Part shown: in pieces, positions 1,293 to 60,734 of the stretch
Numbering within the stretch: the stretch's first letter is position 1
Layout: every line of letters starts with the position of its first letter
From: Procambarus clarkii
Taxonomy: Eukaryota; Arthropoda; Malacostraca; Decapoda; Cambaridae
Reading direction: 5' to 3'
Length of the DNA: 64,000 nt
Assembly (NCBI RefSeq): GCF_040958095.1
Contig: NC_091152.1
Location: 17,950,796 to 18,014,795 of the forward strand
Program-made: the position numbers and the translations under genes
Notes under the pieces: generated by a model
Databases searched by the model: none
What the model saw: only the letters and a program-made list of their open reading frames with translations
Told to the model about the DNA's origin: nothing

Positions 1293-1395
1293 TGTACTAG
1301 ATGGGTGCCGCCCGTAACTGTCGCCGCCGTGAACATTCTTCAGTCCAGCTGGTGTTATTGTGGCGCTCTTCTATGTATTTGTTCCCGAGACTTAC

Positions 1396-1522
1396 CTGCG
1401 CAGTATCTGGAAGGCGTGCGGCGGCGCAGTAGCAGTGCGCAGCCGGTGAAGGAGGGAGAGTAGTGGCGGACAGTCGGTGATGTGGCCGCATGCGCCATGC
1501 CGCCCTCCGCCCCGCGCACACC
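1396..1522 (-). CDS. Gene B exon 2: CLIP domain, first half
   Basis: 127 nt, encoding 41 codons plus split codons, in the same phases (1 in, 2 out) as gene A exon 2. It carries three CLIP cysteines: C, nine residues, C, five residues, C. The following PPLLSLLHRL helix matches the gene A helix. Acceptor GTGTTGCAG; donor GTAAGT at 1395-1390. Aligned to gene A it shares about 16 of 33 residues from the GxCG onward. The remaining exons of gene B are not in the window and should lie beyond position 1. Confidence 0.88.
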
Positions 1523-1575
1523 CTGCAACACACACCAACCTCACAATATAGCAGACTCTACAAGGCCCATGCAAG

Positions 1576-9479: not shown

Positions 9480-9769
9480 TAAACCGACGGCTCTGTAGAA
9501 GAAGGTGGACGATGTACCGGATGTGCATGTAACATATTTGAACAATCTTCTCTCGTACATACAGCAATGAAGCGCGTCAATGACTGGGCAAGTACAACTC
9601 AAACCGAACTTGCAGGCATATACCTTGCCACTGAATTTTTAATAGACAAAGGCAGTGGACTTATATACTGTGACTCGCAGAGTGCACTCCTGGCATTGAA
9701 CGCCCATAGTAGTGACACCCAGAAAATAGTCAGTGATATTCGAATGAATGTTTTAGCTGCTAAAGATTA
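9480..9769 (+). pseudogene. RNase H fragment cut by minisatellite
   Basis: Reads TDGSVEEGG, then TQTELAGIYLATEFL, then YCDSQSALLAL, i.e. the first three acidic sites of a LINE RNase H domain. The coding match stops exactly where the 21-bp array starts at 9770, so the last part (WIPSHVG region) is missing. Confidence 0.8.
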
Positions 9770-11750
9770 CAGGCAGCTGGAGGTGTACCTCAGGCAGCTG
9801 GTGGTGTACCACAGGCAGCTGGAGGTGTACCACAGGCAGCTGGTGGTGTACCACAGGCAGCTGGTGGTGTACCACAGGGAGCTGGTGGTGTATCATAGGC
9901 AGCTGGTGGTGTACCACAGGCAGCTGGAGGTGTACCACAGGCAGCTGGAGGTGTACCACAGGTAGCTGGTGGTGTGCCACAGGCAGCTGGTGGTGTACCA
10001 CAGGCAGCTGGTGGTGTACCACAGGCAGCTGGTGGTGTACCACAGGCAGCTGGTGGTGTACCACAGGCAGCTGGTGGTGTACCTCAGGCAGCTGGAGGTG
10101 TACCACAGGCAGCTGGTGGTGTACCACAGGCAGCTGGTGGTGTACCACAGGCAGCTGGTGGTGTACCACAGGCAGCTGGAGGTGTACCACAGGCAGCTGG
10201 TTGTGTACCACAGGCAGCTGGTGGTGTACCACAGGCAGCTGGTGGTGTACCACAGGCAGATGGTGGTGTACCACAGGCAGCTGGTGGTGTACCACAGGCA
10301 GTTGGTGGTGTACCACAGGCAGCTGGAGGTGTACCACAGGCAGCTGGTGGTGTACCACAGGCAGCTGGTGGTGTACCACAGGCAGCTGGTGGTGTACCAC
10401 AGGCAGCTGGAGGTGTACCACAGGCAGCTGGTTGTGTACCACAGGCAGCTGGTGGTGTACCACAGGCAGCTGGTGGTGTACCACAGGCAGCTGGTGGTGT
10501 ACCTCAGGCAGCTGGTGGTGTACCTCAGGCAGCTGGTGGTGTACCTCAGGCAGCTGGTGGTGTACCTCAGGCAGCTGGTGGTGTACCACAGGCAGCTGGT
10601 GGTGTACCACAGGCAGCTGGTGGTGTACCTCAGGCAGCTGGTGGTGTACCTCAGGCAGCTGGTGGTGTACCACAGGCAGCTGGTGGTGCACCACAGGCAG
10701 CTGGTGGTGTACCTCAGGCAGCTGGTGGTGTACCTCAGGCAGTTGGTGGTGTACCACAGGCAGCTGGTGGTGTACCTCAGGCAGCTGGTGGTGTACCACA
10801 GGCAGCTGGTGGTGTACCACAGGCAGCTGGAGGGTGTACCTCAGGCAGCTGGTGGTGTACCTCAGGCAGCTGGAGGTGTACCTCAGGCAGCTGGTGGTGT
10901 ACCACAGGCAGCTGGTGGTGTACCACAGGCAGCTGGAGGGTGTACCACAGGCAGCTGGAGGTGTACCTCAGGCAGCTGGTGGTGTACCTCAGGCAGTTGG
11001 TGGTGTACCACAGGCAGCTGGTGGTGTACCTCAGGCAGCTGGTGGTGTACCACAGGCAGCTGGTGGTGTACCACAGGCAGCTGGAGGGTGTACCTCAGGC
11101 AGCTGGTGGTGTACCTCAGGCAGCTGGAGGTGTACCTCAGGCAGCTGGTGGTGTACCTCAGGCAGCTGGTGGTGTACCTCAGGCAGCTGGTGGTGTACCA
11201 CAGGCAGCTGGTGGTGTACCACAGGCAGCTGGAGGGTGTACCTCAGGCAGCTGGTGGTGTACCTCAGGCAGCTGGAGGTGTACCTCAGGCAGCTGGTGGT
11301 GTACCACAGGCAGCTGGTGGTGTACCACAGGCAGCTGGAGGGTGTACCTCAGGCAGCTGGAGGGTGTACCTCAGGCAGCTGGTGGTGTACCTCAGGCAGC
11401 TGGTGGTGTACCTCAGGCAGTTGGTGGTGTACCACAGGCAGCTGGTGGTGTACCTCAGGCAGCTGGTGGTGTACCACAGGCAGCTGGTGGTGTACCACAG
11501 GCAGCTGGAGGGTGTACCTCAGGCAGCTGGTGGTGTACCTCAGGCAGCTGGAGGTGTACCTCAGGCAGCTGGTGGTGTACCACAGGCAGCTGGTGGTGTA
11601 CCACAGGCAGCTGGAGGGTGTACCTCAGGCAGCTGGAGGTGTACCTCAGGCAGCTGGAGGTGTACCTCAGGCAGCTGGTGGTGTACCACAGGCAGCTGGT
11701 GGTGTACCTCAGGCAGCTGGTGGTGTACCACAGACAGCTGGTGGTGTACA
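9770..11750. repeat. Minisatellite, 21-bp unit, about 94 copies
   Basis: Unit CAGGCAGCTGGTGGTGTACC plus A (or CAGG..ACCT, GGAGG variants). Most units contain GCTGGTGG, identical to the bacterial chi octamer. Higher-order blocks of about 300 bp (GGAGGGTG variants) recur between 10820 and 11640. It ends 18 bp downstream of the gene B exon 1 donor. Confidence 0.98.
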
Positions 11751-11768
11751 GTGTTCACTATCACTTAC

Positions 11769-11844
11769 TGGCTATATGGTGAGCGTCACAACCCACCGTC
11801 ACCATCGCTGTCACCATTATCATCATCGCCGCGAAGCGCCACAT
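11769..11844 (-). CDS. Gene B exon 1: signal peptide of a paralogous CLIP protease
   Basis: 76 nt, the same length and phase as gene A exon 1, differing at about 10 positions by my count. It encodes MWRFAAMMIMVTAMVTVGCD and a few more residues. Donor GTAAGTGAT at 11768-11760. The upstream acceptor CCTCCAG and the eight UTR bases GTGTGATA match gene A. The exon is boxed between two minisatellites, 31 bp upstream and 18 bp downstream. Pairing with exon 2 at 1396-1522 is inferred from phase and order; the intron would be about 10.2 kb. Confidence 0.82.
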
Positions 11845-11882
11845 TATCACACCTGGAGGATGAACCGTCACTATTAGACAGA

Positions 11883-13968
11883 CACTGACAGTAATACAAC
11901 AGTCCACACTGACAGTAATACAACAGTCCACACTGACAGTAATACAACAGTCCACACTGACAGTAATACAACAGTCCACACTGACAGTAATACAACAGTC
12001 CACACTGACAGTAATACAACAGTCCACACTGACAGTAATACAGTCCACACTGACAGTAATACAACAGTCCACACTGACAGTAATACAACAGTCCACACTG
12101 ACAGTAATACAACAGTCCACACTGTCAGTAATACAACAGTCCACACTGACAGTAATACAACAGTCCACACTGACAGTAATACAACAGTCCACACTGACAG
12201 TAATACAACAGTCCACACTGACAGTAATACAGTCCACACTGACCGTAATACAACAGTCCACACTGACAGTAATACAACAGTCCACACTGACAGTAATACA
12301 ACAGTCCACACTGACAGTAATACAACAGTCCACACTGACAGTAATACAACAGTCCACACTGACAGTAATACAACAGTCCACACTGTCAGTAATACAACAG
12401 TCCACACTGACAGTAATACAACAGTCCACACTGACAGTAATACAACAGTCCACACTGACAGTAATACAACAGTCCACACTGACAGTAATACAACAGTCCA
12501 CACTGACAGTAATACAGTCCACACTGACAGTAATACAGTCCACACTGACAGTAATACAACAGTCCACACTGTCAGTAATACAACAGTCCACACTGACAGT
12601 AATACAACAGTCCACACTGACAGTAATACAACAGTCCACACTGACAGTAATACAACAGTCCACACTGACAGTAATACAACAGTCCACACTGACAGTAATA
12701 CAACAGTCCACACTGACAGTAATACAACAGTCCACACTGACAGTAATACAACAGTCCACACTGACAGTAATACAACAGTCCACACTGTCAGTAATACAAC
12801 AGTCCACACTGACAGTAATACAACAGTCCACACTGACAGTAATACAACAGTCCACACTGACAGTAATACAACATTCCACACTGACAGTAATACAGTCCAC
12901 ACTGACAGTAATACAACAGTCCACACTGACAGTAATACAGTCCACACTGACAGTAATACAGTCCACACTGACAGTAATACAACAGTCCACACTGACAGTA
13001 ATACAACAGTCCACACTGACAGTAATACAACAGTCCACACTGACAGTAATACAGTCCACACTGACAGTAATACAACAGTCCACACTGACAGTAATACAGT
13101 CCACACTGACAGTAATACAACAGTCCACACTGACAGTAATACAGTCCACACTGACAGTAATACAGTCCACACTGACAGTAATACAACAGTCCACACTGAC
13201 AGTAATACAACAGTCCACACTGACAGTAATACAACAGTCCACACTGACAGTAATACAACAGTCCACACTGACAGTAATACAACAGTCCACACTGACAGTA
13301 ATACAACAGTCCACACTGACAGTAATACAACAGTCCACACTGACAGTAATACAGTCCACACTGACAGTAATACAGTCCACACTGACAGTAATACAGTCCA
13401 CACTGACAGTAATACAACAGTCCACACTGACAGTAATACAGTCCACACTGACAGTAATACAACAGTCCACACTGACAGTAATACAACAGTCCACACTGAC
13501 AGTAATACAACAGTCCACACTGACAGTAATACAACAGTCCACACTGACAGTAATACAACAGTCCACACTGTCAGTAATACAACAGTCCACACTGACAGTA
13601 ATACAGTCCACACTGACAGTAATACAACAGTCCACACTGACAGTAATACAACAGTCCACACTGACAGTAATACAACAGTCCACACTGTCAGTAATACAAC
13701 AGTCCACACTGACAGTAATACAACAGTCCACACTGACAGTAATACAACAGTCCACACTGACAGTAATACAACAGTCCACACTGACAGTAATACAACAGTC
13801 CACACTGACAGTAATACAGCAGTCCACACTGACAGTAATACAACAGTCCACACTGACAGTAATACAACAGTCCACACTGACAGTAATACAACAGTCCACA
13901 CTGACAGTAATACAACAGTCCACACTGACAGTAATACAACAGTCCACACTGACAGTAATACAACAGTC
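11883..13968. repeat. Minisatellite, 24-bp (and 21-bp) unit, about 88 copies
   Basis: Unit ACTGACAGTAATACAACAGT plus CCAC, with a 21-bp deletion variant lacking ACA. It begins 31 bp upstream of the gene B exon 1 acceptor side, in the presumed 5' UTR intron. The minus strand is open in all frames; not a gene. Confidence 0.98.
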
Positions 13969-14035
13969 CCTAACCCGTGTTACATTATGATCAGTAATTA
14001 TTGAGTGATTAGTAGTAAATATAGCGTGTATTTAC

Positions 14036-27844: not shown

Positions 27845-28002
27845 TTACGGCTTCAAGTTATTGGTGATCCAAGAAGCATAGAAGGCCACATTGGTGTAGA
27901 GTCCCTGGGTGTTGGTGGAGCCGCACTCTCTGGGGCCCCGGCTGGTAATGCCAACCACGAAGTGCCTGGTGCCCCCGGTGTTGGTGAAGGCCAGGGGCCC
28001 GC
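27845..28002 (-). CDS. Gene A exon 8: C-terminus and stop
   Basis: Encodes residues 319-369 and a TAA stop at 27847-27845: GPL, VVGITSRGP (substrate-binding strand), CG (C344), GLYTNVAFYASWI (the conserved terminal helix) and a short tail. Acceptor TGTTACAG. A 38-bp minisatellite begins 14 bases beyond the stop, so the 3' UTR probably consists largely of repeat. Confidence 0.95.
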
Positions 28003-31000
28003 CTGTAACAAGATCCTACTGTTAATATGGAGAATATTAGGGATTATATTGTTGAGGCTATCGATATATATCGATATATTATTCATGGTTGATGGGGCTA
28101 TCAGTGAAGGAACCAGTGGAACGAGGCTATCAGAGTGGGAACCAGAGGAATGAGGTTATCAGAGAACCATTACAAGAATCTTCCCACCATACTGGTTTTC
28201 TCTACAGGTGTCCTGGTCCTCCCCACTTACCAGAGTCCCCCCCCCTGCAGGTGTCCTTGTCCTCCACACTTACCAGAGTCCCCCCCCTGCAGGTGTCCTG
28301 GTCCTCCCCACTTACCAGAGTCCCCCCCCCTGCAGGTGTCCTTGTCCTCCACACTTACCAGAGTCCCCCCCCTGCAGGTGTCCTTGTCCTCCACACTTAC
28401 CAGAGTCCCCCCCCCTGCAGGTGTCCTTGTCCTCCACACTTACCAGAGTCCCCCCCCTGCAGGTGTCCTTGTCCTCCACACTTACCAGAGTCCCCCCCCT
28501 GCAGGTGTCCTTGTCCTCCCCACTTACCAGAGTCCCCCCCCTGCAGGTGTCCTTGTCCTCCCCACTTACCAGAGTCCCCCCCCTGCAGGTGTCCTTGTCC
28601 TCCACACTTACCAGAGTCCCCCCCCCTGCAGGTGTCCTTGTCCTCCACACTTACCAGAGTCCCCCCCCTGCAGGTGTCCTTGTCCTCCACACTTACCAGA
28701 GTCCCCCCCCTGCAGGTGTCCTTGTCCTCCACACTTACCAGAGTCCCCCCCCCCTGCAGGTGTCCTTGTCCTCCACACTTACCAGAGTCCCCCCCCCCCC
28801 TGCAGGTGTCCTTGTCCTCACCACTTACGAGAGTCCCCCCCCCCCTGCAGGTCTCCTGGTCCTCCCCACTTACCAGAGTCCCCCCCCCCTGCAGGTGTCC
28901 TTGTCCTCCCCACTTACCAGAGTCCCCCCCCCTGCAGGTGTCCTGGTCCTCCACACTTACCAGAGTCCCCCCCCCCTGCAGATGTCCTTGTCCTCCACAC
29001 TTACCAGAGTCCCCCCCCCCCTGCAGATGTCCTTGTCCTCCACACTTACCAGAGTCCCCCCCCCCCCCTGCAGGTGTCCTTGTCCTCCCCACTTACCAGA
29101 GTCCCCCCCCTGCAGGTGTCCTGGTCCTCCACACTTACCAGTCCCCCCTGCAGGTGTCCTTGTCCTCCACACTTACCAGAGTCCCCCCCCTGCAGGTGTC
29201 CTTGTCCTCCCCACTTACCAGAGTCCCCCCTGCAGGTGTCCTTGTCCTCCACACTTACCAGAGTCCCCCCTGCAGGTGTCCTTGTCCTCCCCACTTACCA
29301 GAGTCCCCCCCCCCTGCAGGTGTCCTGGTCCTCCACACTTACCAGTCCCCCCTGCAGGTGTCCTTGTCCTCCACACTTACCAGAGTCCCCCCCCCCTGCA
29401 GGTGTCCTTGTCCTCCCCACTTACCAGAGTCCCCCCTGCAGGTGTCCTTGTCCTCCACACTTACCAGAGTCCCCCCTGCAGGTGTCCTTGTCCCCCCCCT
29501 GCAGGTGTCCTGGTCCTCCACACTTACCAGAGTCCCCCCCCCCCTGCAGATGTCCTTGTCCTCCACACTTACCAGAGTCCACCCCCCCTGCAGGTGTCCT
29601 TGTCCTCCCCACTTACCAGAGTCCCCCCCCCCTGCAGGTGTACTTGTCCTCCCCACTTACCAGAGTCCCCCCCCCCTGCAGGTGTCCTGGTCCTCCCCAC
29701 TTACCAGAGTCCCCCCCCCCTGCAGGTGTCCTTGTCCTCCCCACTTACCAGAGTCCCCCCCCTGCAGGTGTCCTTGTCCTCCACACTTACCAGAGTCCCC
29801 CCCCTGCAGGTGTCCTGGTCCTCCACACTTACCAGAGTCCCCCCCCCTGCAGGTGTCCTTGTCCTCCCCACTTACCAGAGTCCCCCCCCCTGCAGGTGTC
29901 CTTGTCCTCCCCACTTACCAGAGTCCCCCCCCCCTGCAGGTGTCCTTGTCCTCCCCACTTACCAGAGTCCCCCCCCTGCAGGTGTCCTTGTCCTCCACAC
30001 TTACCAGAGTCCCCCCCCCCCTGCAGGTGTCCTTGTCCTCCCACTTACCAGAGTCCCCCCCCTGCAGGTGTCCTGGTCCTCCACACTTACCAGAGTCCCC
30101 CCCCCTGCAGGTGTCCTTGTCCTCCACACTTACCAGAGTCCCCCCCCTGCAGGTGTCCTTGTCCTCCCCACTTACCAGAGTCCCCCCCCCTGCAGGTGTC
30201 CTTGTCCTCCCCACTTACCAGAGTCCCCCCCCCTGCAGGTGTCCTTGTCCTCCACACTTACCAGAGTCCCCCCTGCAGGTGTCCTTGTCCTCCCACTTAC
30301 CAGAGTCCCCCCCCTGCAGGTGTCCTTGTCCTCCCCACTTACCAGAGTCCCCCCCCTGCAGGTGTCCTTGTCCTCCACACTTACCAGAGTCCCCCCCCCT
30401 GCAGGTGTCCTTGTCCTCCCCACTTACCAGAGTCCCCCCCCCCTGCAGGTGTCCTGATCCTCCCCACTTACCAGAGTCCCCCCCCCCCCCTGCAGGTGTC
30501 CTGGTCCTCCACACTTACCAGTCCCCCCCCTGCAGGTGTCCTGATCCTCCCCACTTACCAGAGTCCCCCCCCCATGCAGGTGTCCTTGTCCTCCACACTT
30601 ACCAGAGTCCCCCCCCCCTGCAGATGTCCTTGTCCTCCACACTTACCAGAGTCCCCCCCCCCCCTGCAGATGTCCTTGTCCTCCACACTTACCAGAGTCC
30701 CCCCCCCCCTGCAGGTGTCCTTGTCCTCCCCACTTACCAGAGTCCCCCCCCTGCAGGTGTCCTTGTCCTCCACACTTACCAGAGTCCCCCCCCCTGCAGG
30801 TGTCCTTGTCCTCCACACTTGCCAGAGTCCCCCCCCCCCTGCAGGTGTCCTTGTCCTCCACACTTACCAGTCACCCCCCCCTGCAGGTGTCCTTGTCCTC
30901 CCCACTTACCAGAGTCCCCCCCCCCTGCAGGTGTCCTGGTCCTCCCCACTTACCAGAGTCCCCCCCCCTGCAGGTGTCCTTGTCCTCCACACTTACCAGA

Positions 31001-34000
31001 GTCCCCCCCCCCTGCAGGTGTCCTTGTCCTCCCCACTTACCAGAGTCCCCCCCCCCTGCAGGTGTCCTTGTCCTCCCACTTACCAGAGTCCCCCCCCCCT
31101 GCAGGTGTCCTTGTCCTCCCCACTTACCAGAGACCCCCCCCTGCAGGTGTCCTTGACCTCCCCACTTACCAGAGTCCCCCCTGCAGGTGTCCTGGTCCTC
31201 CACACTTACCAGAGTCCCCCCCCCCTGCAGGTGTCCTGGTCCTCCCCACTTACCAGAGTCCCCCCCCCCCCCTGCAGGTGTCCTTGTCCTCCCCACTTAC
31301 CAGAGTCCCCCCCCTGCAGGTGTCCTTGTCCTCCACACTTACCAGAGTCCCCCCCCCCCTGCAGGTGTCCTTGTCCTCCCCACTTACCAGAGTCCCCCCC
31401 CTGCAGGTGTCCTTGTCCTCCCCACTTACTAGAGTCCCCCCCCCTGCAGGTGTCCTTGTCCTCACCACTTACGAGTCCCCCCCCCTGCAGGTGTCCTGGT
31501 CCTCACCACTTACCAGAGTCCCCCCCCTGCAGGTGTCCTTGTCCTCCCCACTTACTAGAGTCCCCCCCCTGCAGGTGTCCTTGTCCTCACCACTTACGAG
31601 AGTCCCCCCCCTGCAGGTGTCCTTGTCCTCACCACTTACGAGAGTCCCCCCCCCTGCAGGTGTCCTGGTCCTCCCCACTTACCAGAGTCCCCCCCCCCTG
31701 CAGGTGTCCTGGTCCTCCACACTTACCAGAGTCCCCCCCCCCCTGCAGGTGTCCTGGTCCTCCCCACTTACGAGAGTCCCCCCCCTGCAGGTGTCCTTGT
31801 CCTCACTACTTACGAGAGTCCCCCCCCTGCAGGTGTCCTTGTCCTCACCACTTACGAGAGTCCCCCCCCTGCAGGTGTCCTGGTCCTCCCCACTTACCAG
31901 AGTCCCCCCCCTGCAGGTGTCCTTGTCCTCCCCACTTACCAGAGTCCCCCCCCTGCAGGTGTCCTTGTCCTCCCCACTTACCAGAGTCCCCCCCCCTTCA
32001 GGTGTCCTTGTCCTCCCCACTTACCAGAGTCCCCCCCCCCCCTGCAGGTGTCCTTGTCCTCCACACTTACCAGAGTCCCCCCTGCAGGTGTCCTTGTCCT
32101 CCCCACTTACCAGAGTCCCCTCTGCAGGTGTCCTTGTCCTCCACACTTACCAGAGTCCCCCCCCCTGCAGGTGTCCTTGTCCTCACCACTTACGAGTCCC
32201 CCCCCCTGCAGGTGTCCTGGTCCTCCCCACTTACCAGAGTCCCCCCCCCCCTGCAGGTGTCCTTGTCCTCCACACTTACCAGAGTCACCCCCCCCCTGCA
32301 GGTGTCCTTGTCCTGCACACTTACCAGAGTCCCCCCCTGCAGGTGTCCTGGTCCTCCCCACTTACCAGAGTCCCCCCCCCCCTGCAGGTGTCCTTGTCCT
32401 CCCCACTTGCCAGAGTCCCCCCTGCAGGTGGCCTTGTCCTCCCCACTTACCAGAGTCCCCCCTGCAGGTGTCCTTGTCCTCCACACTTAAGAGAGTCCCC
32501 CCCCCCTGCAGGTGTCCTGGTCCTCCACACTTACCAGAGTCCCCCCCCCCCTGCAGGTGTCCTGGTCCTCCACACTTACCAGAGTCCCCCCTGCAGGTGT
32601 CCTTGTCCTCCACACTTACCAGAGTCCCCCCCCCCTGCAGGTGTCCTGGTCCTCCACACTTACCAGAGTCCCCCTGCAGGTGTCCTTGTCCTCCACACTT
32701 ACCAGAGTCCCCCCTGCAGGTGTCCTTGTCCTCCACACTTACCAGAGTCCCCCCCTGCAGGTGTCCTGGTCCTCCACACTTACCAGAGTCCCCCCTGCAG
32801 GTGTCCTTGTCCTCCACACTTACCAGAGTCCCCCCCCCTGCAGGTGTCCTTGTCTTCCACACTTACCAGAGTCCCCCCTGCAGGTGTCCTTGCCCTCTCC
32901 ACCTGCACACAGCACCATGCGACGGTCCGGATAACCTTGTCTCAGAGTCTCACAATATTGCGAGTTTTGGATGGGCAACTGCACTTGCTGCAGAGGGTTG
33001 AGTCGAATGAACTCTGACGAATCTGGAATTGATAATTAAGCAAGAATTAATAGATAAAAAGTTGTCTACCAATAGCTCTACTCCTACCTCGTAAAATTTG
33101 ACATTCTTAGCCCCTGTCAGTTTGGCTTCCGCTCCCAAAAGAGTACCAACGATGCGATTATTAGTCTCCTTGATATAATTTACTCAGCCCTTGACAAAAA
33201 TGAGTTTTCAATTGGACTCTTCATTGACCTGATAAAGGCCTTTGATACAGTTAATCACAATTACTTCTTATGTGAACTCCATCATTATGGAATCCGAGGC
33301 CATACACTGGACAATATCCAATCCTATCTTAGTGATAGACACCAATGTGTAGCCATCAGTAATATAACCTCTCCCACTCTACCAATAACCATTGGAGAGC
33401 CACAGGACAGCATCTTGGGACCTCTTCTATTTCTTATATACATCAATGATCTGCCTAATGTCTCTAACATTCTGAAACCTATTTTGTTTGTTGTCAACCC
33501 ACATACACTAAATAATGTTCTTAATAATTAACTAAAAAAAGTCCACTTATGGATGTCAACCAACAAACTAACACTTAACATAGAAAAGACCTACAACATC
33601 TTATTCGGAAGCAAATCTACAAATGCAATTCAGCTTCAGATAGACAATGTAAACATTAGCAATAAAAATGATGGCAAGTTTCTTGGCCTATTCCTAGACA
33701 AGAGACTCAACTTCAGCACCCACATACAACACATAACTAAGGAAGTCTCTAAAACAATTGGTATACTCTAGAAAGTTAGATATTATGTACCTAACTCTGC
33801 TCTCATCTCTCTCTATATTATGCACTAATCTATCCCTATCTTAATTATGGTATCTGTGCATGGAGTTCTATCACTGCTTACCACCTCAAGTCCATCATCA
33901 GTCAAGTCCATCAGATTAATAACAAATTCTGCTTTCAGACAACACTCAGCCCCCTGTTTAACTCCCTAAACATGCTAAACATAATCTCACTCCACAAATT

Positions 34001-37000: not shown

Positions 37001-40000
37001 TACACAGTGTCACACTGTACACAGTGTGACACTGTACACGTGAGACACTAACCTCTGGAGGTGGTGCCCCAGCCGGCCGCCCAGGCAGACTTCCCAATAA
37101 ACTGCTGCTCGCTGAAGCCCAGGTCCTTCTGGGGGTTGAGAGGCAGGCAGATGGGCACCACGTGTACTGTAATACATCATAAAATTAGTACACCAGAGCT
37201 TTATTGACGTGTAGGGGAACACACGTGGAGGGGAGCCCACGTGGGAAGTGACAGGTGGCTGTTACAGTTTAGCTGTTGATAAATGATGTAGTCTTGTATT
37301 GGATACTTGCGTGCAATCTAAGTTTTGAGACAGTGTTCAGTTTTCTACCTGGGAGGCTAGGTTACCCCCCAAGGGTCAAGGGATTAGTGAGGGGGAGGTT
37401 AGACAAGATGGCCACGTCTCCCTTGATGTTAATTCAGATTGGAAGTTAAACTGAATGGAAGCAAAGCATGTATGGGATGAAATATCTAGAGCATCTAGGT
37501 CTAACAGTATTTATGTCATGGGTGACTTTATTTTATTGGAATAATCTGGCTTAACAAAACAGGGAATAATGAAGCAGAAAATTTTCTAGAATTAATTGAC
37601 GATTGTTTTCTTACTCAACACATTAAGGAACCAACGCGGGAAAATAATATTTTAAACTTAGTATTAACTAACAGGGAAACACAAATTAATGACATCGAAA
37701 TAGGGAGTGACCCAGGGAACAGTGATCACAAAGAAATCAGATTTTGTATAGAATGGAATAGATCTGCAGGGAAAAATTCTGTTCAAGTGCCAGATTTTCG
37801 AAAAGCTGATTTTAATAGCCTAAGAATTTTTTGGGGTCAAATAGATTGGAAAGTCTTGGGCAGAGGGGGGCTGGTCTTGGAGCGAGACGTGAACCCAGCG
37901 ATAGGTGACGTAAATAGGGATTTCGATGTGGATTCAAAATATAACTTATTTAAAAATATTCTAAGTAAAGCACAGGAACGTAGTATACCATACAAATTGA
38001 ATAAATAGAATACTAATGACTCGAAATGGATAACAAAGGATCTGAAGAACTTTATAGGGAGAAAGAGAGCTTAGTACAAAAGAATTAAGAATGGGAAAGT
38101 CAGTTTAGAACAGGAATTTGTAAGGAGTGCAAAAGAAACTATGAAGTTCATATAGCAGGGCAAGCAAAGACAAATCCTAAAGGGTTCTTTCAGTTATATC
38201 GAACAAAGGTTAGGGAAAGGATAGGTCCATTAAAAACTGAGACAGGTCAAATAACGGATAATGACGAGGAGATAAGTAGTATTTTTAATAAATATTTTAT
38301 CTGTATTTACTAAAGAGGAACTTAACACTATGCCTTCAGCCGAACAAGTCTATGTGGGTGGGGACGAGGACAGGTTGACTAGTTTAGCAGTTACCAGGGA
38401 GGATGTTATTATAAAAATAGTGAAACTCAAACCAAACAAATCCCCAGGGCCGGATGAAGTGTTTGCTAGGGTGCTTAAAGAATGCAAAGAGGAGCTTTGT
38501 GAACCATTGTCTACCATATTTAATAAATTATTAGAGTCAGGCAGAGTGCCAGAGTCATGGAAGGTTGCTAATGTGGATCCAATTTTCAAGAAAGGAGATA
38601 GATCACTTACGTTAAACTATTGGCTAATTAGCTTAACGTCTATTGTGGGAAGGTTAATTGACTCGACAATTGCAAATACTATTCGTCTTCATCTTGAAAA
38701 ACAAATTAATAAATGATTCACAACATGGGTTTACAAATGGCCGTTCATGTTTAACAAATTTGCTATAATTTTATTCCAGCATAATTGAGGCAGTTGATAG
38801 TGGTAAGGTTTGTGATGTTATGTACCTTAACGTTATCAAAGCTTTTGATGCAGTGCCACATGAAAGACTGATTAAAAAAAACTCATGGTATTGGGGGAGC
38901 CATGTTAAGTTGGATTAGGGCATGGCTATACCAAAGGAAACAGAGAGTTAGTATAAATGTGGTTAAGTCAGAGTGGGAAAATGTTGTAAGTGGGGTGCCT
39001 CAAGGCTCTGTCCTGGGACCTCTGTTATTCATAACATATATAAATGATTTAGATTCAGGTTTCAGCAGCAATATTTGCAAATTTGCCGATAATTCATAAT
39101 CGGGAGGGAAGTAAACACGGAAAAATACTCTCTATCACTTCAAGACGATATAAATAGGGCTTTGAAATGGTCAAAGGATTGGCAGATGCAGTTTAATGCT
39201 GATAAATGTAAAGTTCTGAGGCTAGGTAATGATGATAGAGTTACAAGATACGAGCTAGATGGTGTTGAGATTGCGAAGTCGGATTGCGAAAGGGATCTGG
39301 GTTATGATTAGTAAGAATTTAAAACCAAAAATTTAACACGTAAATGTTCGTAATAAGGCAAATAGGACACTGGGATTTATTAATCGAAGCGTTACTAATA
39401 AGATACCTGGTGATGTTCTTTAGCTATGTTTTGCTCTGGTTAGGCCCCATTTAGATTATGCAGTTCAGTTTTGGTCGCCGTATTATAGAATAGATATAAA
39501 TTCACTAGACGTGTCCAGCATAGTATGGCAAAATTAATCCCTCAAATTAGAAACCTGTCATATGAAGAAAGATTAACAAAGCTTAAATTATATTCTCTGG
39601 AAAGGCGAACTACCTGCCAGTGTTGTGTGAACCACCACCACCACCTGCCAGTGTTGTGTGAACCACCACCACCACCACCTGCCAGTGTTGTGTGAACCAC
39701 CACCACCACCACCTGCCAGTGTTGTGTGAACCACCACCACCACCACCTGCCAGTGTTGTGTGAACCACCATCACTACCTGCCAGTGTTGTGTGAACCGCC
39801 ACCACCACCACTACCTGCCAGTGTTGTGTGAACCACCACCACCACCACCTGCCAGTGTTGTGTGAACCACCACCACCACCACCTGCCAGTGTTGTGTGAA
39901 CCACCACCACCACCACTACCTGCCAGTGTTGTGTGAACCACCACCACCACCACTACCTGCCAGTGTTGTGTGAACCACCACCACCACCACTACCTGCCAG

Positions 40001-49000: not shown

Positions 49001-52000
49001 CCAGTGTTGTGTGAACCACCACCACCTGCCAGTGTAGTGTGAACCACCACCACCACCTGCCAGTGTTGTGTGAACCACCACCACCACCACCACCTGCCAG
49101 TGTAGTGTGAACCACCACCACCACCACCACCTGCCAGTGTAGTGTGAACCACCTGGCACAAACTGTACACACACACAAGGGGTGAACCAGTCCGAGACAC
49201 TAACGCGGGTTCATGGTGGCAGGATGGGCCAGCCTCAGGAGGGCGATGTCGTTACACTCGGGGCACGGCTTCCCGTACTCTGGATGGTTGATCACTTGGG
49301 CCACAGGAATGTCTTGGGGCAGAGGAGCACAGATCCCTTTCTCACAGTCCCGGTCCTGGTTCAAGGTGTGCTCCCCGATCCTCACGCTCTCCCTGCGGAG
49401 GAAACAAAGTACAAATGTTGACCAGACCACACACTAGAAATGGAAGGGACGACGACGTTTCGGTCCGTCCTGGACCATTCTCACAATCGACTTGAGAATG
49501 GTCCAGGACGGACCGAAACGTCGTCGTCCCTTCCATTTCTAGTGTGTGGTCTGGTCAACATACTTCAGCCACGTTATTGTGAAAGTACAAATATAACATA
49601 TGCAGGGTACGTTCTTTGTCTCTGTTGCAAGATTTACCAGTGCCAGTAATTCATTTCATACATTTTATAATCAAATTGAAGGGTGAAGTGTATTGGCCAT
49701 GGAGGTAGAATCGAGGTAGAGAGACGGGTACTTACAGGGTGAGCAGGTTGGACTTGAAACAGTGGGCGGCCGTGAGGACGTAGCGGTCAGAGATGAGCAC
49801 CCCGCCACAGAACCACGTCAACTGTCCTTTAACTGTTGGTATATAATGACTTGTACCAGACACCGAGACATATAGAGATGTATGTTCGTTATGACAAGAT
49901 TATTATGACGAAAGAGAGAGAGGTACATAATAGGCACTCTCACACACACACTATAACCACTCTCACACACACTACAGCCACTCACACACACACACACTAT
50001 AACCACTCTCACACACACACTACAGCCACTCACACACACACTACAGCCACTCTCACACACACACTATAACCACTCTCACACACACTACAGCCACTCACAC
50101 ACACACACACTATAACCACTCTCACACACACACTACAGCCACTCACACACACACTACAGCCACTCTCACACACACACACTACAGCCACTCTCACACACAC
50201 ACACTATAACCACTCTCACACACACACACTACAGCCACTCACACACACACACTACAGCCACTCTCACACACACTACAGCCACTCACACACACACACACTA
50301 CAGCCACTCACACACACACACACTACAGCCACTCACACACACACACTACAGCCACTCACACACACACTACAGCCACTCTCACACACACACACTATAACCA
50401 CTCTCACACACACACTACAGCCACTCACACACACACACACACTACAGCCACTCACACACACACACTACAGCCACTCACACACACACAAACACTACAGCCA
50501 CTCTCTCACACACACACTACAGCCACTCACACACACACACACTACAGCCACTCTCACAAACACACACTACAGCCACTCTCACACACACTACAGCCACTCA
50601 CACACACACTACAGCCACTCTCACACACACTACAGCCACTCACACACACACTACAGCCACTCTCACACACACTATACAGTGTGTACAGGAAAACAACAGT
50701 GAAAGAACAGGTATTGAAACTTAGAACAGGCGAGGACAGGTATACAGAGAATGACAGAGAGGTGTGTGAGGAACTCAACAAGAGGTTCCAGGAGGTCTTC
50801 ACAATAGAACAGGGTGAGGTCACTGTGCTAGGAGAAAGGGAGGTAAACCAGGCGGCCTTGGAGGAGTTCGAAATTACGAGAGAGGAGGTCAAGAGACACC
50901 TGCTGGATCTGGATGTTAGAAAGGCTGTTGGTCCAGATGGGATCTCACCATGGGTACTGAAAGAGTGTGCAGAGGCACTTTGCCTGCCACTCTCCATAGT
51001 GTATAGTAAGTCACTAGAGACGGGAGACCTACCAGAAATATGGAAGACGGCGAATGTGGTCCCAATATACAAAAAGGGCGACAGACAAGAGGCACTGAAC
51101 TACAGGCCAGTGTCCTTGACTTGTATACCATGCAAGGTGATGGAGAAGATCGTGAGAAAAAACCTGGTAACACATCTGGAGAGAAGGGACTTCGTGACAA
51201 ATCGCCAACATGGGTTCAGGGAGGGTAAATCTTGCCTTACAGGCTTGATAGAATTCTACGATCAGGTGACACAGATTAAGCAAGAAAGAGAGGGCTGGGC
51301 GGACTGCATTTTCTTGGATTGTCGGAAAGCCTTTGACACAGTACCGCATAAGAGGCTGGTACATAAGCTGGAGAGACAGGCAGGTGTAGCTGGTAAGGTG
51401 CTCCAGTGGATAAGGGAGTATCTAAGCAATAGGAAGCAGAGAGTTACGGTGAGGGGTGAGACCTCCGATTGGCGTGAAGTCACCAGTGGAGTCCCACAGG
51501 GCTCTGTACTCGGTCCTATCTTGTTTCTGATATATGTAAATGATCTCCCGGAGGGTATCGATTCATTTCTCTCAATGTTTGCGGACGATGCTAAAATTAT
51601 GAGAAGGATTAAAACAGAAGAGGACTGTTTGAGGCTTCAAGAAGACCTAGACAAGCTGAAGGAATGGTCGAACAAATGGTTGTTAGAGTTTAACCCAACC
51701 AAATGTAATGTAATGAAGATAGGTGTAGGGAGCAGGAGGCCAGATACAAGGTATCATCTGGGAGAGGAAATTCTTCAGGAGTCAGAGAAGGAAAAAGACT
51801 TGGGGGTTGATATCACGCCAGACCTGTCTCCTGCAGCACATATCAAGCGGATAACATCAGCGGCATATGCCAGGCTGGCCAACATACGAACGGCATTCAG
51901 AAACTTGTGTAAAGAATCATTCAGAACTTTGTATACCACATATGTCAGGCCAATCCTGGAGTATGCAGCCCCAGCATGGAGTCCATATCTAGTCAAGGAT

Positions 52001-55000: not shown

Positions 55001-56779
55001 ACACACACACACTACAGCCACTCACACACACACACACACACTACAACCACTCTCACACACACACTACAGTCACTCACACACACACACACTACAGCCACTC
55101 ACACACACACACTACAGCCACTCACACACACACACACTACAACCACTCTCACACACACACTACAGCCACTCTCACACACACACTACAGCCACTCACACAC
55201 ACACATACACTACAACCACTCACACACACACACTACAGCCACTCTCACACACACATACACTACAACCACTCACACACACACACTACAACCACTCACACAC
55301 ACACACTACAACCACTCACACTCACACACTACAGCCACACACACACACACTACAGCCACACACACATACACTACAACCACTCACACACACACACACTACA
55401 ACCACTCACACACACACACTACAACCACTCACACACACACACTACAGCCACACACACACACACTACAGCCACACACACACACACTACAGCCACACACACA
55501 TACACTACAACCACTCACACACTCCCCCTTCCCCACTGACATCTGCCTCGTAGGAGGGCCATCCAGGGCCAGGCCAGGAGGGGGGCGTCGTGCCCGTCAA
55601 TGATCCTGTCAGTAAGGGCGGAGACGCCGCAGGAGGTGGGCAGGACGGGCTTCACCAGATTCCCCGGCCCCGGGGCGGCGGCTCCAGGAGACGAGCAGCA
55701 CACCAGAGGGAAGTTGTTGTCGAAGCCGCAGATGGCGCTGTGGAGGATGGAACAGTTATTGTGGTCACGCACCTTTGTGTGTGGCCGCGCATCTTTGTGT
55801 GTGGCCACACACCTTTCTATGTGGCCACAGACAAACAAGACAGCAGAGACATGATCATAACATCATAGATTGTTACATTCACTGTAACTATTTACTGACA
55901 CAAATAATGTTTTTTTCCAAAAGTAGAAACAGATGATACTGTAATAGTGTAATACTGAGCAAGTCCAGTGTGCATGAGCAAGGGTTGGACGGGAGGAAGT
56001 GTAATACTGAGCAAGTCCATCATGAGCAGGGGTTGGACGGGAGGCAATGTAACAGTGAACAAGTCCAGAGAGCATGAACAGGGGGTTGGACGTACACAGA
56101 GAGGAAGGGGGACTTACCTGCGCAAGGTGTCGACTGCTTGCGGGGGCGCCCGTCCTGCCTTTATCAGGTTGAGGAGAGTGAGGAGCGCGGGACAGTTGAT
56201 GATGGGCCCACACACGCCCCGCCGGCCCCTCGCCGTACAACCTGCCACACACACATACTTAATAACTGCCACACTCTGGTAGATGGCAGAGAGGCGAGGC
56301 ACGCCAACCTGGCCAAGGGTGACCAGTATACACACCAACATGTAGTGAGACATAATTGGGGGATAGAGATGTAGAAACAACAGTTTCTACAAATATTTAC
56401 TTGCAAATTGTTTTAAGTAATCAAGGTACAGTACTTTAAATTTGAGTTTAAATCCTTAGAAAGTATGTGAAGGGAAATACATTTGTACTGTACTTCCTGT
56501 GGCGTCCAATACAGCTGCTTGCAGAATATAGGAAAGAGAACAGAGTTAAAAAAAATAGTTTTAACTAAATGTGTTTGAGCAATATACAGTTTTCTTACCA
56601 ATATACAGTTGATGTTCTTACCATGTTTTAAAATCAACTGGGAAAAGATTACTGGAATCAAAATACAAAACATGGGTTTTGATACAGCAATTTACAAAAC
56701 TATAGTATTTTTGTAAATCTCTAATTAAATGTGCAATCAATAGAAATAAAGAACAAAAAATAACTTGAAATATTAAGTA

Positions 56780-60441: not shown

Positions 60442-60688
60442 TGAATGTGTAGAATGTGAATGTGTGTGAATGAGCAAGCACGTTGTTGTTGTTATAGACT
60501 CAGCTCATCGGAACATAAGTTCCAAGTATCATGGTCTATGGTGAGCCCGTAGAGCGTGCAGGCTTGAGAAAGATAGTAAGAGAGCATGAAGATAGTGTTG
60601 ACCATCACTTACTGGCTCCTTGCTGTGCGTCACAACCCACCGTCACCATCGCTGTCACCATCATCATCATCGCCGTGAACCGACCCAT
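27845..60688 (-). CDS. Gene A: CLIP-domain serine protease, complete, 8 coding exons
   Basis: Predicted secreted zymogen of the arthropod CLIP-protease family (easter / prophenoloxidase-activating type), which acts in extracellular cascades. Eight exons joined at GT..AG sites give 369 residues, with intron phases 1,2,1,2,1,1,1. Order: Met-rich signal peptide (about 1-21); CLIP domain with six Cys (27, 36, 42, 70, 80, 81); linker with Cys103; activation site R111 then IIDG; S1 domain 112-369. The triad is His156 (TAAHC), Asp213 (NDIALL) and Ser317 (GDSGGP). Asp311, six residues before Ser317, predicts trypsin-like cleavage after Arg/Lys. Canonical disulphide partners are present: C141/C157, C289/C304, C313/C344 and C103/C234. 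C181/C186 fits the extra loop of this subgroup. C208 and C211, just before the catalytic Asp, are unusual. The substrate cannot be read from sequence; proPO activation or clotting are possibilities. The only soft point is the exon 7 acceptor. Confidence 0.93.
28207..32866. repeat. Minisatellite made from the exon 7/intron 7 junction, about 110 copies
   Basis: The unit is 40-45 bp. On the gene strand it is GTAAGTGTGG (first ten intron bases) followed by AGGACAAGGACACCTGCAGG and G(n)ACTCTG, i.e. the last 30 bases of exon 7 encoding K-D-T-C-R-G-D-S plus the first base of the next codon. Length varies because the G run ranges from about 5 to 10; exon 7 itself has 6. The array starts exactly at the exon 7 donor and fills most of intron 7. 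Other variants include GTGGTGAGGA and GGACCAGGACACC. The very long open frames on the plus strand are shadows of this. Confidence 0.97.
32867..33022 (-). CDS. Gene A exon 7: catalytic serine motif
   Basis: Encodes residues 267-317: LQQVQLPI, QYCE (C289), MVLCAGG (C304) and GKDTCRGDS with Asp311 (S1 pocket) and catalytic Ser317. The exon ends in TCT-G just before GTAAGTGTGG; that G plus GC of exon 8 restores GDSGGP. The acceptor AATTCCAG at 33030-33023 has a weak pyrimidine tract. A second in-frame AG eight or nine bases further in (GTCAG) would drop three residues, so the first three codons are uncertain. The last 30 bases of this exon are the parent of the adjacent minisatellite. Confidence 0.92.
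33075..34735 (+). pseudogene. LINE RT fragment with (TAAA)n tail in intron 6
   Basis: Frame reading CQFGFRSQKSTNDAI, LFIDLIKAFDTVNH, ILGPLLFLIYINDLP; the FADD box is damaged (FVVNPH). Then WMSTNKLTLNIEKT and a C-terminal part at 33972-34268 with SLWNSLPIELKSC. 3' UTR ends in CTTCTTGTATATAAATAAAT repeats at 34691-34735. Antisense to gene A. Confidence 0.88.
34736..35140. other. No gene seen (intron 6)
   Basis: AT-rich unique sequence. Confidence 0.5.
35141..36745. repeat. 20-bp minisatellite, about 80 copies
   Basis: Unit CCTCTCTCATACACTGTTCC, with GTTACC, GTTCTC, CACTTCC and 18-bp or 16-bp variants enriched toward 36400-36745. Inside intron 6, about 300 bp from the exon 6 donor. Confidence 0.97.
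36746..37052. other. Intron 6 start: LINE 3' tail and short repeats
   Basis: 36885-36935 is a LINE 3' end (GGACCAAAGAGCTAAAGCTC ... AACTAGGTGAGTAC). 36975-37045 holds short mirror-like repeats of ACACTGTACACAGTGTGAC next to the donor. Confidence 0.6.
37053..37166 (-). CDS. Gene A exon 6: VPICLP to AGWG segment
   Basis: Encodes residues 229-265: VVPICLPL (Cys234 is the expected partner of linker Cys103) and WAAGWGTT, the typical S1 core strand. The acceptor ATTACAG precedes TA, which completes codon C-TA (Leu228). Donor GTTAGT at 37052-37047. Confidence 0.93.
37400..39610 (+). pseudogene. CR1-like LINE, endonuclease to thumb, cut by minisatellite
   Basis: Endonuclease remnants (MGDF; SDH near 37725), the linker with DFRKADFNSLR, then RT: KPNKSPGPDEVFARVL, VPESWKVANVDPIFKKGD, VSGVPQGSVLGPLLF and CKFAD (FADD damaged), ending at NLSYEERLTKLKLYSLERR, directly against the array at 39611. 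Many stops. Same family as 17071-18225. Intron 5 of gene A, antisense. Confidence 0.87.
39611..49153. repeat. 9.5-kb CAC-rich minisatellite, nearly 300 copies
   Basis: Unit CTGCCAGTGTAGTGTGAAC followed by a (CAC)n run of varying length, about 26-48 bp in all; TGTTG and TGTAG variants interleave, with TGTTG denser toward 39.6-42 kb. Unit length is 3n+1, so each minus-strand frame cycles through Gly-, Trp- and Val-runs with no stop, giving spurious frames up to 1434 codons. Fills most of intron 5 and ends 45 bp from the exon 5 donor. Confidence 0.98.
49205..49392 (-). CDS. Gene A exon 5: catalytic aspartate
   Basis: Encodes residues 166-227: SVRIGEH, the extra-disulphide loop DCEKGIC, the QDIPV and VINHPEY strands, and NDIALLRL with catalytic Asp213. 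Acceptor CCTCCGCAG; donor GTTAGT at 49204-49199. The acceptor lies 22 bases from the 69-bp inverted repeat in intron 4. The non-consensus CPEC just before NDIALL adds two cysteines (208, 211). Confidence 0.94.
49415..49561. repeat. 69-bp perfect inverted repeat, 9-bp spacer
   Basis: Arms 49415-49483 and 49493-49561 are exact reverse complements by base-by-base check; spacer CAATCGACT. It lies wholly in intron 4, ending 22 bp before the exon 5 acceptor. Each arm contains GGTCCAGGACGGACCGAAAC. Confidence 0.97.
49562..49735. other. Rest of intron 4
   Basis: Between the inverted repeat and the exon 4 donor; no feature recognised. Confidence 0.5.
49736..49832 (-). CDS. Gene A exon 4: catalytic histidine
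   Basis: Encodes residues 134-164, including WFCGGVLIS and LTAAHCF with catalytic His156. I chose the acceptor ACCAACAG at 49840-49833 over GGACAG eleven bases further in, because only the former keeps the phase from exon 3. Donor GTAAGT at 49735-49730. Confidence 0.93.
49935..50676. repeat. CA-rich minisatellite, part 1
   Basis: Units of about 17-26 bp: CACTCACACACACACTACAG plus C, with TATAAC and TCTC variants and a variable CA run. Begins about 100 bp from the exon 4 acceptor in intron 3. Continues after the LINE at 52463. Confidence 0.95.
50687..52462 (+). mobile_element. 5'-truncated LINE with intact RT frame
   Basis: Uninterrupted frame to a stop at 52372. RT blocks: KAVGPDGISPWVLKE, NYRPVSLTCIPCKVMEK, QHGFREGKSC, CRKAFDTVPHKRL, SGVPQGSVLGPILF and the FADD active site about residue 300. 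Then a thumb and C-terminal region (RPILEYAAPAWSPYL, FATRLVPELRGM, SVRVVDKWNALGG). The 3' UTR ends AACACAACTAGGTGAGTA. The endonuclease is missing, and the first codon of the open frame is GTG inside the fragment, so it is 5' truncated and not autonomous. It is inserted in the CA-rich array, antisense to gene A. Its intactness suggests a young copy. Confidence 0.93.
52463..53897. repeat. CA-rich minisatellite, part 2
   Basis: Same units as 49935-50676, directly abutting the LINE 3' end and the LTR 5' end. Confidence 0.95.
53898..54911. mobile_element. Solo LTR, about 1.0 kb
   Basis: Begins TGTTACGGACCC and ends GGGCCGTAACA, giving 8-bp inverted ends TGTTACGG/CCGTAACA. CACAC flanks both sides, consistent with a 5-bp target duplication, although the target is itself CA repeat. 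No internal retroviral genes and no second LTR, so it is a solo LTR of an LTR retrotransposon (perhaps Gypsy-like). Confidence 0.75.
54912..55523. repeat. CA-rich minisatellite, part 3
   Basis: Same array, more ACAACC variants; ends about 12 bp from the exon 3 donor. Confidence 0.95.
55541..55737 (-). CDS. Gene A exon 3: end of CLIP, linker, activation site
   Basis: Encodes residues 68-132. Contains AICGF and VCC, which are CLIP cysteines 4-6 (C70, C80, C81), a Pro/Gly/Ala linker, linker Cys103 (TSCG), and the cleavage site R111 followed by IIDG, the new N-terminus whose Ile forms the activating salt bridge in S1 proteases. Acceptor CCTCCACAG; donor GTCAGT at 55540-55535. The final T joins TT of exon 4 to make Phe133. 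Confidence 0.93.
55750..55835. repeat. Short tandem repeat beside the exon 3 acceptor
   Basis: About three copies of a 21-23-bp unit (CACCTTTGTGTGTGGCCAC and variants) within intron 2, starting about 20 bp from the acceptor. Confidence 0.8.
55942..56098. repeat. Short tandem repeat beside the exon 2 donor
   Basis: About three copies of a roughly 52-55-bp unit containing GAGCAAGTCCA and GGGTTGGACGGGAGG. Ends about 14 bp before the GTAAGT of intron 2. Confidence 0.82.
56118..56241 (-). CDS. Gene A exon 2: first part of CLIP domain
   Basis: Encodes residues 27-66 plus split codons at both ends. It carries CLIP cysteines 1-3 (C27, C36, C42) and the Leu-rich CPALLTLLNL helix. The acceptor is GGCAG with a GT-rich tract upstream; the donor is GTAAGT at 56117-56112. 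The first two bases complete AGT (Ser26) with exon 1, and the last two (AG) take C from exon 3 to give Ser67. Confidence 0.92.
56242..56782. other. No gene seen (intron 1)
   Basis: AT-rich intronic sequence upstream of the exon 2 acceptor. Confidence 0.55.
56783..56868. repeat. (GT)n microsatellite, 86 bp
   Basis: Pure dinucleotide run. In the orientation of the adjoining LINE it is a (CA)n tail directly after its 3' end. Confidence 0.97.
56869..59297 (-). pseudogene. LINE with endonuclease and RT, internally deleted and interrupted
   Basis: Read from 59297 down. Endonuclease 59144-58740 (LIMEDFNHGKIDWEN, GMSDHSVLNF); linker 58735-58400; RT with AVGPDGISPWVLKE; then TSGVPQGSVLGPILF and FADDAKIM (57400-56970). 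After DLSPAAHIK the sequence jumps straight to the 3' UTR, so about 650 bp (thumb and C-terminus) is deleted compared with 50687-52462. A MITE sits at 57440-57699. In intron 1, same strand as gene A. Confidence 0.9.
57440..57699. mobile_element. MITE, 260 bp, Harbinger-like
   Basis: Ends AGGCCAGATTCACGAAAG and, reversed, GGACCAGATTCACGAAAG. The inverted ends extend about 90 bp, including CTTACGCAAGCACTTACGAA and TTATTAAACAGTT. Comparison with the uninterrupted LINE at about 51345-51365 shows a CAG target duplication (57437-57439 and 57700-57702), fitting the 3-bp CWG target of PIF/Harbinger elements. No transposase. Confidence 0.85.
59298..59338. repeat. (GT)n microsatellite
   Basis: Forms a (CA)n tail immediately after the 3' end of the LINE at 59339-60343 (minus strand). 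Confidence 0.95.
59339..60343 (-). mobile_element. 5'-truncated LINE, RT palm to C-terminus
   Basis: Open frame 60290-59406: GPILFLVYVNDM, MFADDAKLMRR (FADD), WSEKWLLEFNTSKCKVM, RPVLEYDASSWSPHL, SFSVRVVGKWNALQEQ, then a stop and a short 3' UTR ending CACAACTAGGTGAGTAC. The 5' end is truncated within the GTPQGS block at a (GT)n tract. Related to, but diverged from, the LINE at 50687. Confidence 0.92.
60344..60439. repeat. (GT)n microsatellite, about 96 bp
   Basis: Abuts the truncated 5' end of the previous LINE; about 170 bp from the exon 1 donor of gene A. Confidence 0.96.
60613..60688 (-). CDS. Gene A exon 1: signal peptide
   Basis: Encodes residues 1-25 plus the first base of codon 26. 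The ATG is at 60688-60686. Met-rich hydrophobic stretch MMMMVTAMVTVG, likely cleaved near the CDA/QQ boundary. The donor GTAAGT lies at 60612-60607. Eight bases upstream of the ATG there is an acceptor (CCGCAG, then GTGTGATA), so a 5' UTR intron probably precedes this exon; its upstream partner was not found. The exon is paired with exon 2 because the phase matches and because the same exon, of identical 76-nt length, occurs in gene B. Confidence 0.88.
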
Positions 60689-60734
60689 TATCACACCTGC
60701 GGATCAAAAATCAAAATATCACCATTAGTCATCA

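Follow-up and report, generated by a model that had tools for sequence, protein, structure and literature searches.

The 64,000-nucleotide window analyzed here lies on a 63,029,869-base contig (C3) of the 4.03-Gb genome of Procambarus clarkii and contains a minus-strand gene for phenoloxidase-activating factor 3, which we call gene W (~60,697 down to 27,845; positions are those of the window unless a contig is named, and negative positions lie outside it). Intron 7 of this gene carries a long minisatellite whose units straddle the exon 7/intron 7 junction, combining bases of the exon with bases of the intron. The joined exons of gene W are 99% identical to P0001, phenoloxidase-activating factor 3 isoform X1 of P. 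clarkii, and with the CLIP part left out they match the Trypsin domain at an E value of 6.4e-48. P0001 carries precomputed PF12032 and PF00089 domains, and the combination of Trypsin, GDSGGP and CLIP places gene W among the clip-domain serine proteases.

The exons for the catalytic His, Asp and Ser were all mapped, and all lie on the minus strand. The signal-peptide exon was placed by a 100% tblastn match whose limits are given (60611..60697). It is followed by a CLIP-region exon with GRRGVCGPIINCPALL (56117..56242, limits approximate), the activation-site exon with DRIIDG (55541..55737), the catalytic His exon with TAAHC (49736..49832), the exon of the catalytic Asp region (49205..49392) and exon 6, which begins HVVPICLPLNPQ (37053..37166). 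Exon 7 (32867..33022, 100% identical to the annotated protein by tblastn) ends GAC TCT G at the catalytic serine, which is Ser323 in P0001 and not Ser317, as an earlier sequence-only reading of this DNA had numbered it. Its splice sites are tatcaattccag/ATTCG on the acceptor side and ggggggactctg/GTAAGTG on the donor side. Exon 8 encodes the C-terminus (GPLAF...NNLKP stop; 27845..28002) and matches residues 323-375 of P0001 at 98% by tblastn.

The minisatellite occupies 4,662 bases of intron 7 (28205..32866, minus strand) and directly abuts exon 7, leaving ~200 bases of other intron sequence before exon 8. That unique 3' end (28003..28204) supplies the acceptor atcttgttacag. Using Tandem Repeats Finder, a unit listing, a per-position table and direct counts, we found 109 donor anchors in the array, the real donor included, of which 106 keep GTAAGT and 105 keep GTAAGTG. 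The sequence-only reading had described a junction minisatellite of about 110 copies, and the count bears this out. The sequence CTGGTAAGT is present 95 times in the array, where ~0.01 copies would be expected from base composition. The 108 complete units are between 38 and 47 nt long, except for one of 63 nt; 97 measure 40-45 nt, and 42 nt is the commonest length (30/108). Lengths vary because the unit contains a G-run of 5-13 bases in regular units.

In each unit the first ~10 nt correspond to the start of intron 7 and the remaining ~30 nt match the end of exon 7, as would be expected of a repeat born at that junction, the origin already proposed for it. The proposed division into 10 intron and 30 exon bases is roughly right, but exact identity spans only the final 25 nt of the exon with its six Gs, a stretch found in 10 exact copies, or 62 if the length of the G-run is left free. 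Upstream of this stretch the units read GGACAAGG, while exon 7 of gene W reads GGGCAAGG, and GGCAAGG occurs in none of the 155 complete units of this array and its sister array, described next.

Searched against the genome as DNA, the array matched only in gene W and in a second array ~60 kb away on C3 (C3:17918383-17920401, outside the window). This second array has 48 donors, all of which keep GTAAGT, and lies directly behind exon 7 of gene P, a tandem paralog of gene W that matches the database protein P0002, phenoloxidase-activating factor 3-like. An exact-pattern genome search with the unit returned 124 matches; counting the exon ends, 82 lie in one array and 42 in the other, so that none falls elsewhere. 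When the exon 7 protein was searched against the genome, only the gene W and gene P loci matched. Beyond the arrays and the exon junctions that belong to them, the surrounding 144 kb contain no copy of CTGGTAAGT on either strand. It is very improbable that faulty assembly inflated a short repeat into this structure. Just one assembly stands behind the array, and long arrays with G-runs are difficult to assemble, but the units differ among themselves, and gene P carries an array of its own, which is shorter and in part made up of other unit types. Within this assembly, the structure of the array is certain.

Repeats of this form have been described before. In two reports on amphioxus, minisatellite-like tandem duplications across an exon-intron boundary, named mirages, occur in the globin genes BflGb6/BflGb9 and in Adh3, TnC and PGBD5 (PMC3087553, PMC3902484); PMC3087553 refers to the original mirage report (doi 10.1093/nar/gkf386). 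According to the two reports, amphioxus mirages lie on the donor or the acceptor side, many of their copies carry splice signals, and regular splicing is reported to be undisturbed; units measure 10-72 bp in Adh3 and 150-160 bp in the globins, with 6 and 3 copies in two BflGb6 haplotypes (PMC3087553, PMC3902484). The crayfish unit likewise holds exon and intron bases of one boundary, and its copies carry splice signals. Unlike the amphioxus cases as described there, it comes in 109 and 48 copies, belongs to an arthropod and stands in two ancient paralogs. The crayfish array is thus a very large and extreme member of the mirages, a rare but known kind of repeat, whose structural definition it fits.

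A second comparison is with human genes of segmental duplications. One study describes internal tandem repeats with ~30-bp units and a mean of 4 copies, some at exon-intron boundaries, which differ between paralogs and change exons or link to new introns, with transcript evidence (PMC2812944). The crayfish array is similar in being of minisatellite scale, at an exon-intron boundary and different between paralogs. It differs from what is described there in lying inside an existing intron, with no new intron indicated. Another known tandem duplication across an intron-exon boundary is described as having created a new spliced intron; the crayfish gene shows no sign of a gained intron. Within the mirage literature covered, repeats under that name are described in amphioxus alone, and we recognized no crustacean or paralog-shared junction repeat in the titles and abstract openings of the papers listed by searches on such repeats. 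What is new here is the same array at the same junction of a tandem paralog.

The presence of the array in both genes raises the question of whether it arose once or twice. Independent birth at the same slippage-prone junction is conceivable, given that the exon end and the donor are alike in both genes and that gene P has a second junction repeat (acceptor side, 31 bp, 5 copies) at its exon 6, so that such births recur. We nevertheless consider it unlikely. Both arrays read GGACAAGG, whereas exon 7 reads GGGCAAGG in gene W and CGGCAAGG in gene P, so that the founder base is found in neither exon. Glycine, the residue of both exons, stands at this codon in 19 of the 20 best protein hits; one has arginine and none has the aspartate that the units would specify. 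Aspartate does occur there in two more distant hits, P0027 and P0028. The GGACAAGG base of the units is thus probably derived as well as common to both arrays. Polymorphisms at unit positions 8, 9 and 16 also coincide between the arrays. The two have five unit types in common, to which 71 of the 107 units in W and 34 of the 47 in P belong. The mean distance between units, with G-run length ignored, is 1.97 edits between arrays, compared with 2.08 within W and 1.69 within P (the 63-nt unit was excluded from both comparisons). The shared founder base, polymorphisms and unit types together make independent birth hard to maintain.

The two genes are old. Synonymous divergence (dS) between W and P ranges from 0.72 to 1.75 in five other exon stretches, as against 0.14 over the final 22 codons of exon 7. 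Within exon 7 there are 31 differences in the first 95 nt and 3 in the last 61. Intron 7 of the two genes cannot be aligned outside the arrays, and matches between their other introns are limited to arrays or to repeats present elsewhere too. One 111-bp stretch beside exon 6 is 82% alike in W and P; because it recurs at two other places in the region, it was taken for a dispersed repeat. In a tree of 26 proteins chosen from 120 listed hits (22 decapod, one stomatopod and three without an organism name), an easter protein of Cherax joins gene P to the exclusion of W (support 99/95), and a W+P clade is rejected by the approximately unbiased (AU) test (p-AU 0.022). By this tree, the W/P split would be older than the split between Procambarus and Cherax.

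An array older than the gene duplication and inherited by both paralogs without exchange would account for the like position and unit in W and P. With a duplication that predates the Procambarus-Cherax split, a remainder of intron 7 that cannot be aligned, and arrays about as alike between genes as within them, this simple inheritance is quite improbable. Since the arrays are so alike while the rest of intron 7 is unalignable, inheritance alone is hard to see, and the best reading is that the array was exchanged, or kept alike, between W and P. The exchange perhaps also included the last ~60 bp of exon 7. This bears on an earlier suggestion that unequal exchange could rewrite the exon end. At the diagnostic bases, which lie ~26 nt or farther from the end of exon 7, the exon is matched by none of the units, and this limits the suggestion; an exchange confined to the final 25 nt would go untraced. 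What the data do fit is exchange between the paralogous genes.

We then considered what more than 100 donors might mean for splicing. Virtual splicing, in which exon 7 was extended to each donor and joined to exon 8, reached exon 8 in frame from donor 1 only, 1 of 109 donors in W and 1 of 48 in P. In gene W this donor (32861..32866, minus strand) is also the one implied by the annotated protein. Donor 2 of gene W would itself produce a frameshift, and the 107 donors from the third onward would keep an in-frame TAA that lies inside donor 2, 44 nt past exon 7; any later donor would thus yield a frameshift or an early stop. The annotated proteins of W and P read GDS/GGPL without an insert (P0001 has GDSGGPLAF). 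The sequence-only reading had held that only copies with six Gs keep the frame, which is true within a single copy but not overall: at 40 nt, a unit with six Gs shifts the frame, whereas a multiple of three, such as 42, is needed to keep it. Its further proposal of splice variants with peptide inserted after the catalytic serine finds no footing among the 108 later W donors or the 47 later P donors, none of which is in frame. Coding variation through alternative donors was accordingly rejected, as donor 1 alone keeps the frame in both genes.

The array could also act in splicing itself. More than 100 donors binding U1 might tune the splicing of exon 7, retain the intron or protect the transcript from premature polyadenylation, and the immune protease would be regulated in this way. 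The intact GTAAGT donors, 106 in W and 48 in P, and the presence of the array in two ancient paralogs fit such a role. Nevertheless, it appears unlikely. No later donor gives an in-frame product. Donor positions showed no clear extra constraint across 151 units, with 3 changes at 6 sites versus 18 at 19 others once three polymorphic sites were left out. Nor is donor 1 structurally privileged in a fold prediction of exon 7 plus 900 nt of the gene W array, in which its predicted accessibility (0.52) falls inside the range of donors 2-18 (0.45-0.76). On these grounds, we take the array to be tolerated. In experiments with duplicated donors, the donor nearest the acceptor is reported to be favored when all are bound by U1. 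If that preference were valid here, the last copy would be used; the annotated use of the first donor instead suggests that exon definition may decide donor choice.

Taken together, we think it probable that the array is a mirage with one founder, exchanged between the paralogs, tolerated and without a function of its own. About 30 nt of exon 7 and the first ~10 nt of intron 7 would have been duplicated in tandem, and slippage or unequal exchange would then have expanded them to 109 copies. A single founder unit would have given rise to both arrays, with ectopic gene conversion or unequal exchange moving the array between W and P or keeping the arrays alike, and this exchange may have brought along the last ~60 bp of exon 7. 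Judging from the annotated protein, the cell would splice at the first donor and handle the rest as intron. The gene W array is most likely a tolerated minisatellite, perhaps evolving in concert, without its own function. More tentatively, and with some doubt on our part, the array may act as a homology bridge that drives ectopic gene conversion and so transfers the catalytic-serine end of exon 7 between the two immune proteases, while the 48 to 109 downstream donors would be ignored under a rule that the first donor of a defined exon is used.

Several observations weigh against this interpretation. The length of the array and its G-runs are known from one assembly only, and donor use is deduced from database proteins. 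Mixing of the arrays is incomplete, P units being closer to one another than to W units, and neighboring units are only slightly closer than shuffled ones (W, 1.91 vs 2.09, standard deviation [sd] 0.07; P, where the effect is weak, 1.54 vs 1.69, sd 0.10). The AU rejection is no stronger than p 0.022, and the place of W beside a second Cherax protein (a 261-residue record) is unsettled. The signal of conversion in the exon tail is modest: the permutation p of the scan is 0.057 for a stretch picked after looking, and Fisher tests give 0.001 for the whole exon tail and 0.026 minus the array-like part, both post hoc. Synonymous-site constraint or selection at the exon end could mimic such conversion.

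To see whether other genes carry junction arrays, we surveyed 30 trypsin loci (L009-L038) out of 157 matches, whose ends are not exact exon ends. Judged from coordinates, no array overlaps a trypsin match in these 30 loci. Repeated 24-mers stood at the match edge in two of them, L030 and L031, which are near-identical copies with the array abutting the likely acceptor side. In 15 further loci (L059-L073), the GDSG-end motif was found in 5, although at L065 in the wrong frame, so the donor comparison covers few. By eye, L068 (C22:31055165-31055865) has a 40-nt array that starts exactly at the likely donor, without exon bases. As far as these checks reach, exon bases were seen in no array among the 45 other loci, and arrays abut exons in three (L030, L031 and L068). 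Within W and P, junction copies were present at 3 of 20 tested boundaries, namely the exon 7 donors of both genes and the exon 6 acceptor of P; these 20 do not include the boundaries of exons 1 and 2 in either gene or of the activation exon in gene P.

Genome-wide, GGTAAGT triplets gave 40,817 matches versus 14,411 for a reversed control, and CAGGTAAGT triplets gave 18,931 versus 362. Among the matches listed, the places were mostly GGTTAG-like repeats in the GGTAAGT search and CGGGCTCACCATAGCCCG-like repeats in the CAGGTAAGT search, so these counts are no measure of junction arrays. Two places with GGTAAGT triplets, L074 and L075, hold donor-bearing arrays that are not tied to a known exon. 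Arrays of at least 100 bp cover 50,087 of 144,000 bases in the W-P region versus 8,788 of 103,037 around other trypsin loci, and 968 of 12,000 bases in six arbitrary stretches. The W-P neighborhood seems rich in minisatellites.

Gene P extends into the window, where its first coding exon (11770..11844) and its CLIP-region exon (1383..1529) lie on the minus strand, both with the limits of their tblastn matches. The former, its signal-peptide exon, is an island between two 2-kb minisatellites, each starting within ~40 nt of it (9769-13969). Exon 6 of gene P, with its first base at about -22930, has its acceptor junction in five copies. The repeat (C3:17927857-17928012, about -22938 to -22783) has a 31-bp unit consisting of the intron end ...TGTGTTACAG and the first 9 exon bases, TTCACGTGG, and one of the five copies is the real junction. 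When the genome was searched for the pattern of this unit with as many as 3 mismatches allowed, it matched four times, only at this place; the fifth copy has an extra base. This repeat is a second mirage, on the acceptor side.

Other repeats were noted nearby. W and P share a 1.7-kb segment at 98.9% identity, located in different introns (50790-52487 and about -29118..-27423); in the window it has CACTACAG-type arrays on both flanks, and weaker copies nearby suggest a mobile element. By eye, a 42-bp tandem unit is apparently common to about -20557..-20093 on C3 and to L080:1785-2000 on C60, and looks like a dispersed satellite, not locally born. Between exons 6 and 7 of gene W, plus-strand remains of reverse-transcriptase-like coding sequence were seen by eye at 33100-33900, and a 66%-identical stretch is located near -52251.

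The crayfish case brings mirages to a crustacean and takes their copy number from a few to more than 100. Gene W offers a natural test of 5' splice-site choice among about 100 equal donors. An intronic repeat common to two old paralogs and lying beside an active-site codon is, in addition, a plausible way in which repeats may homogenize coding ends.

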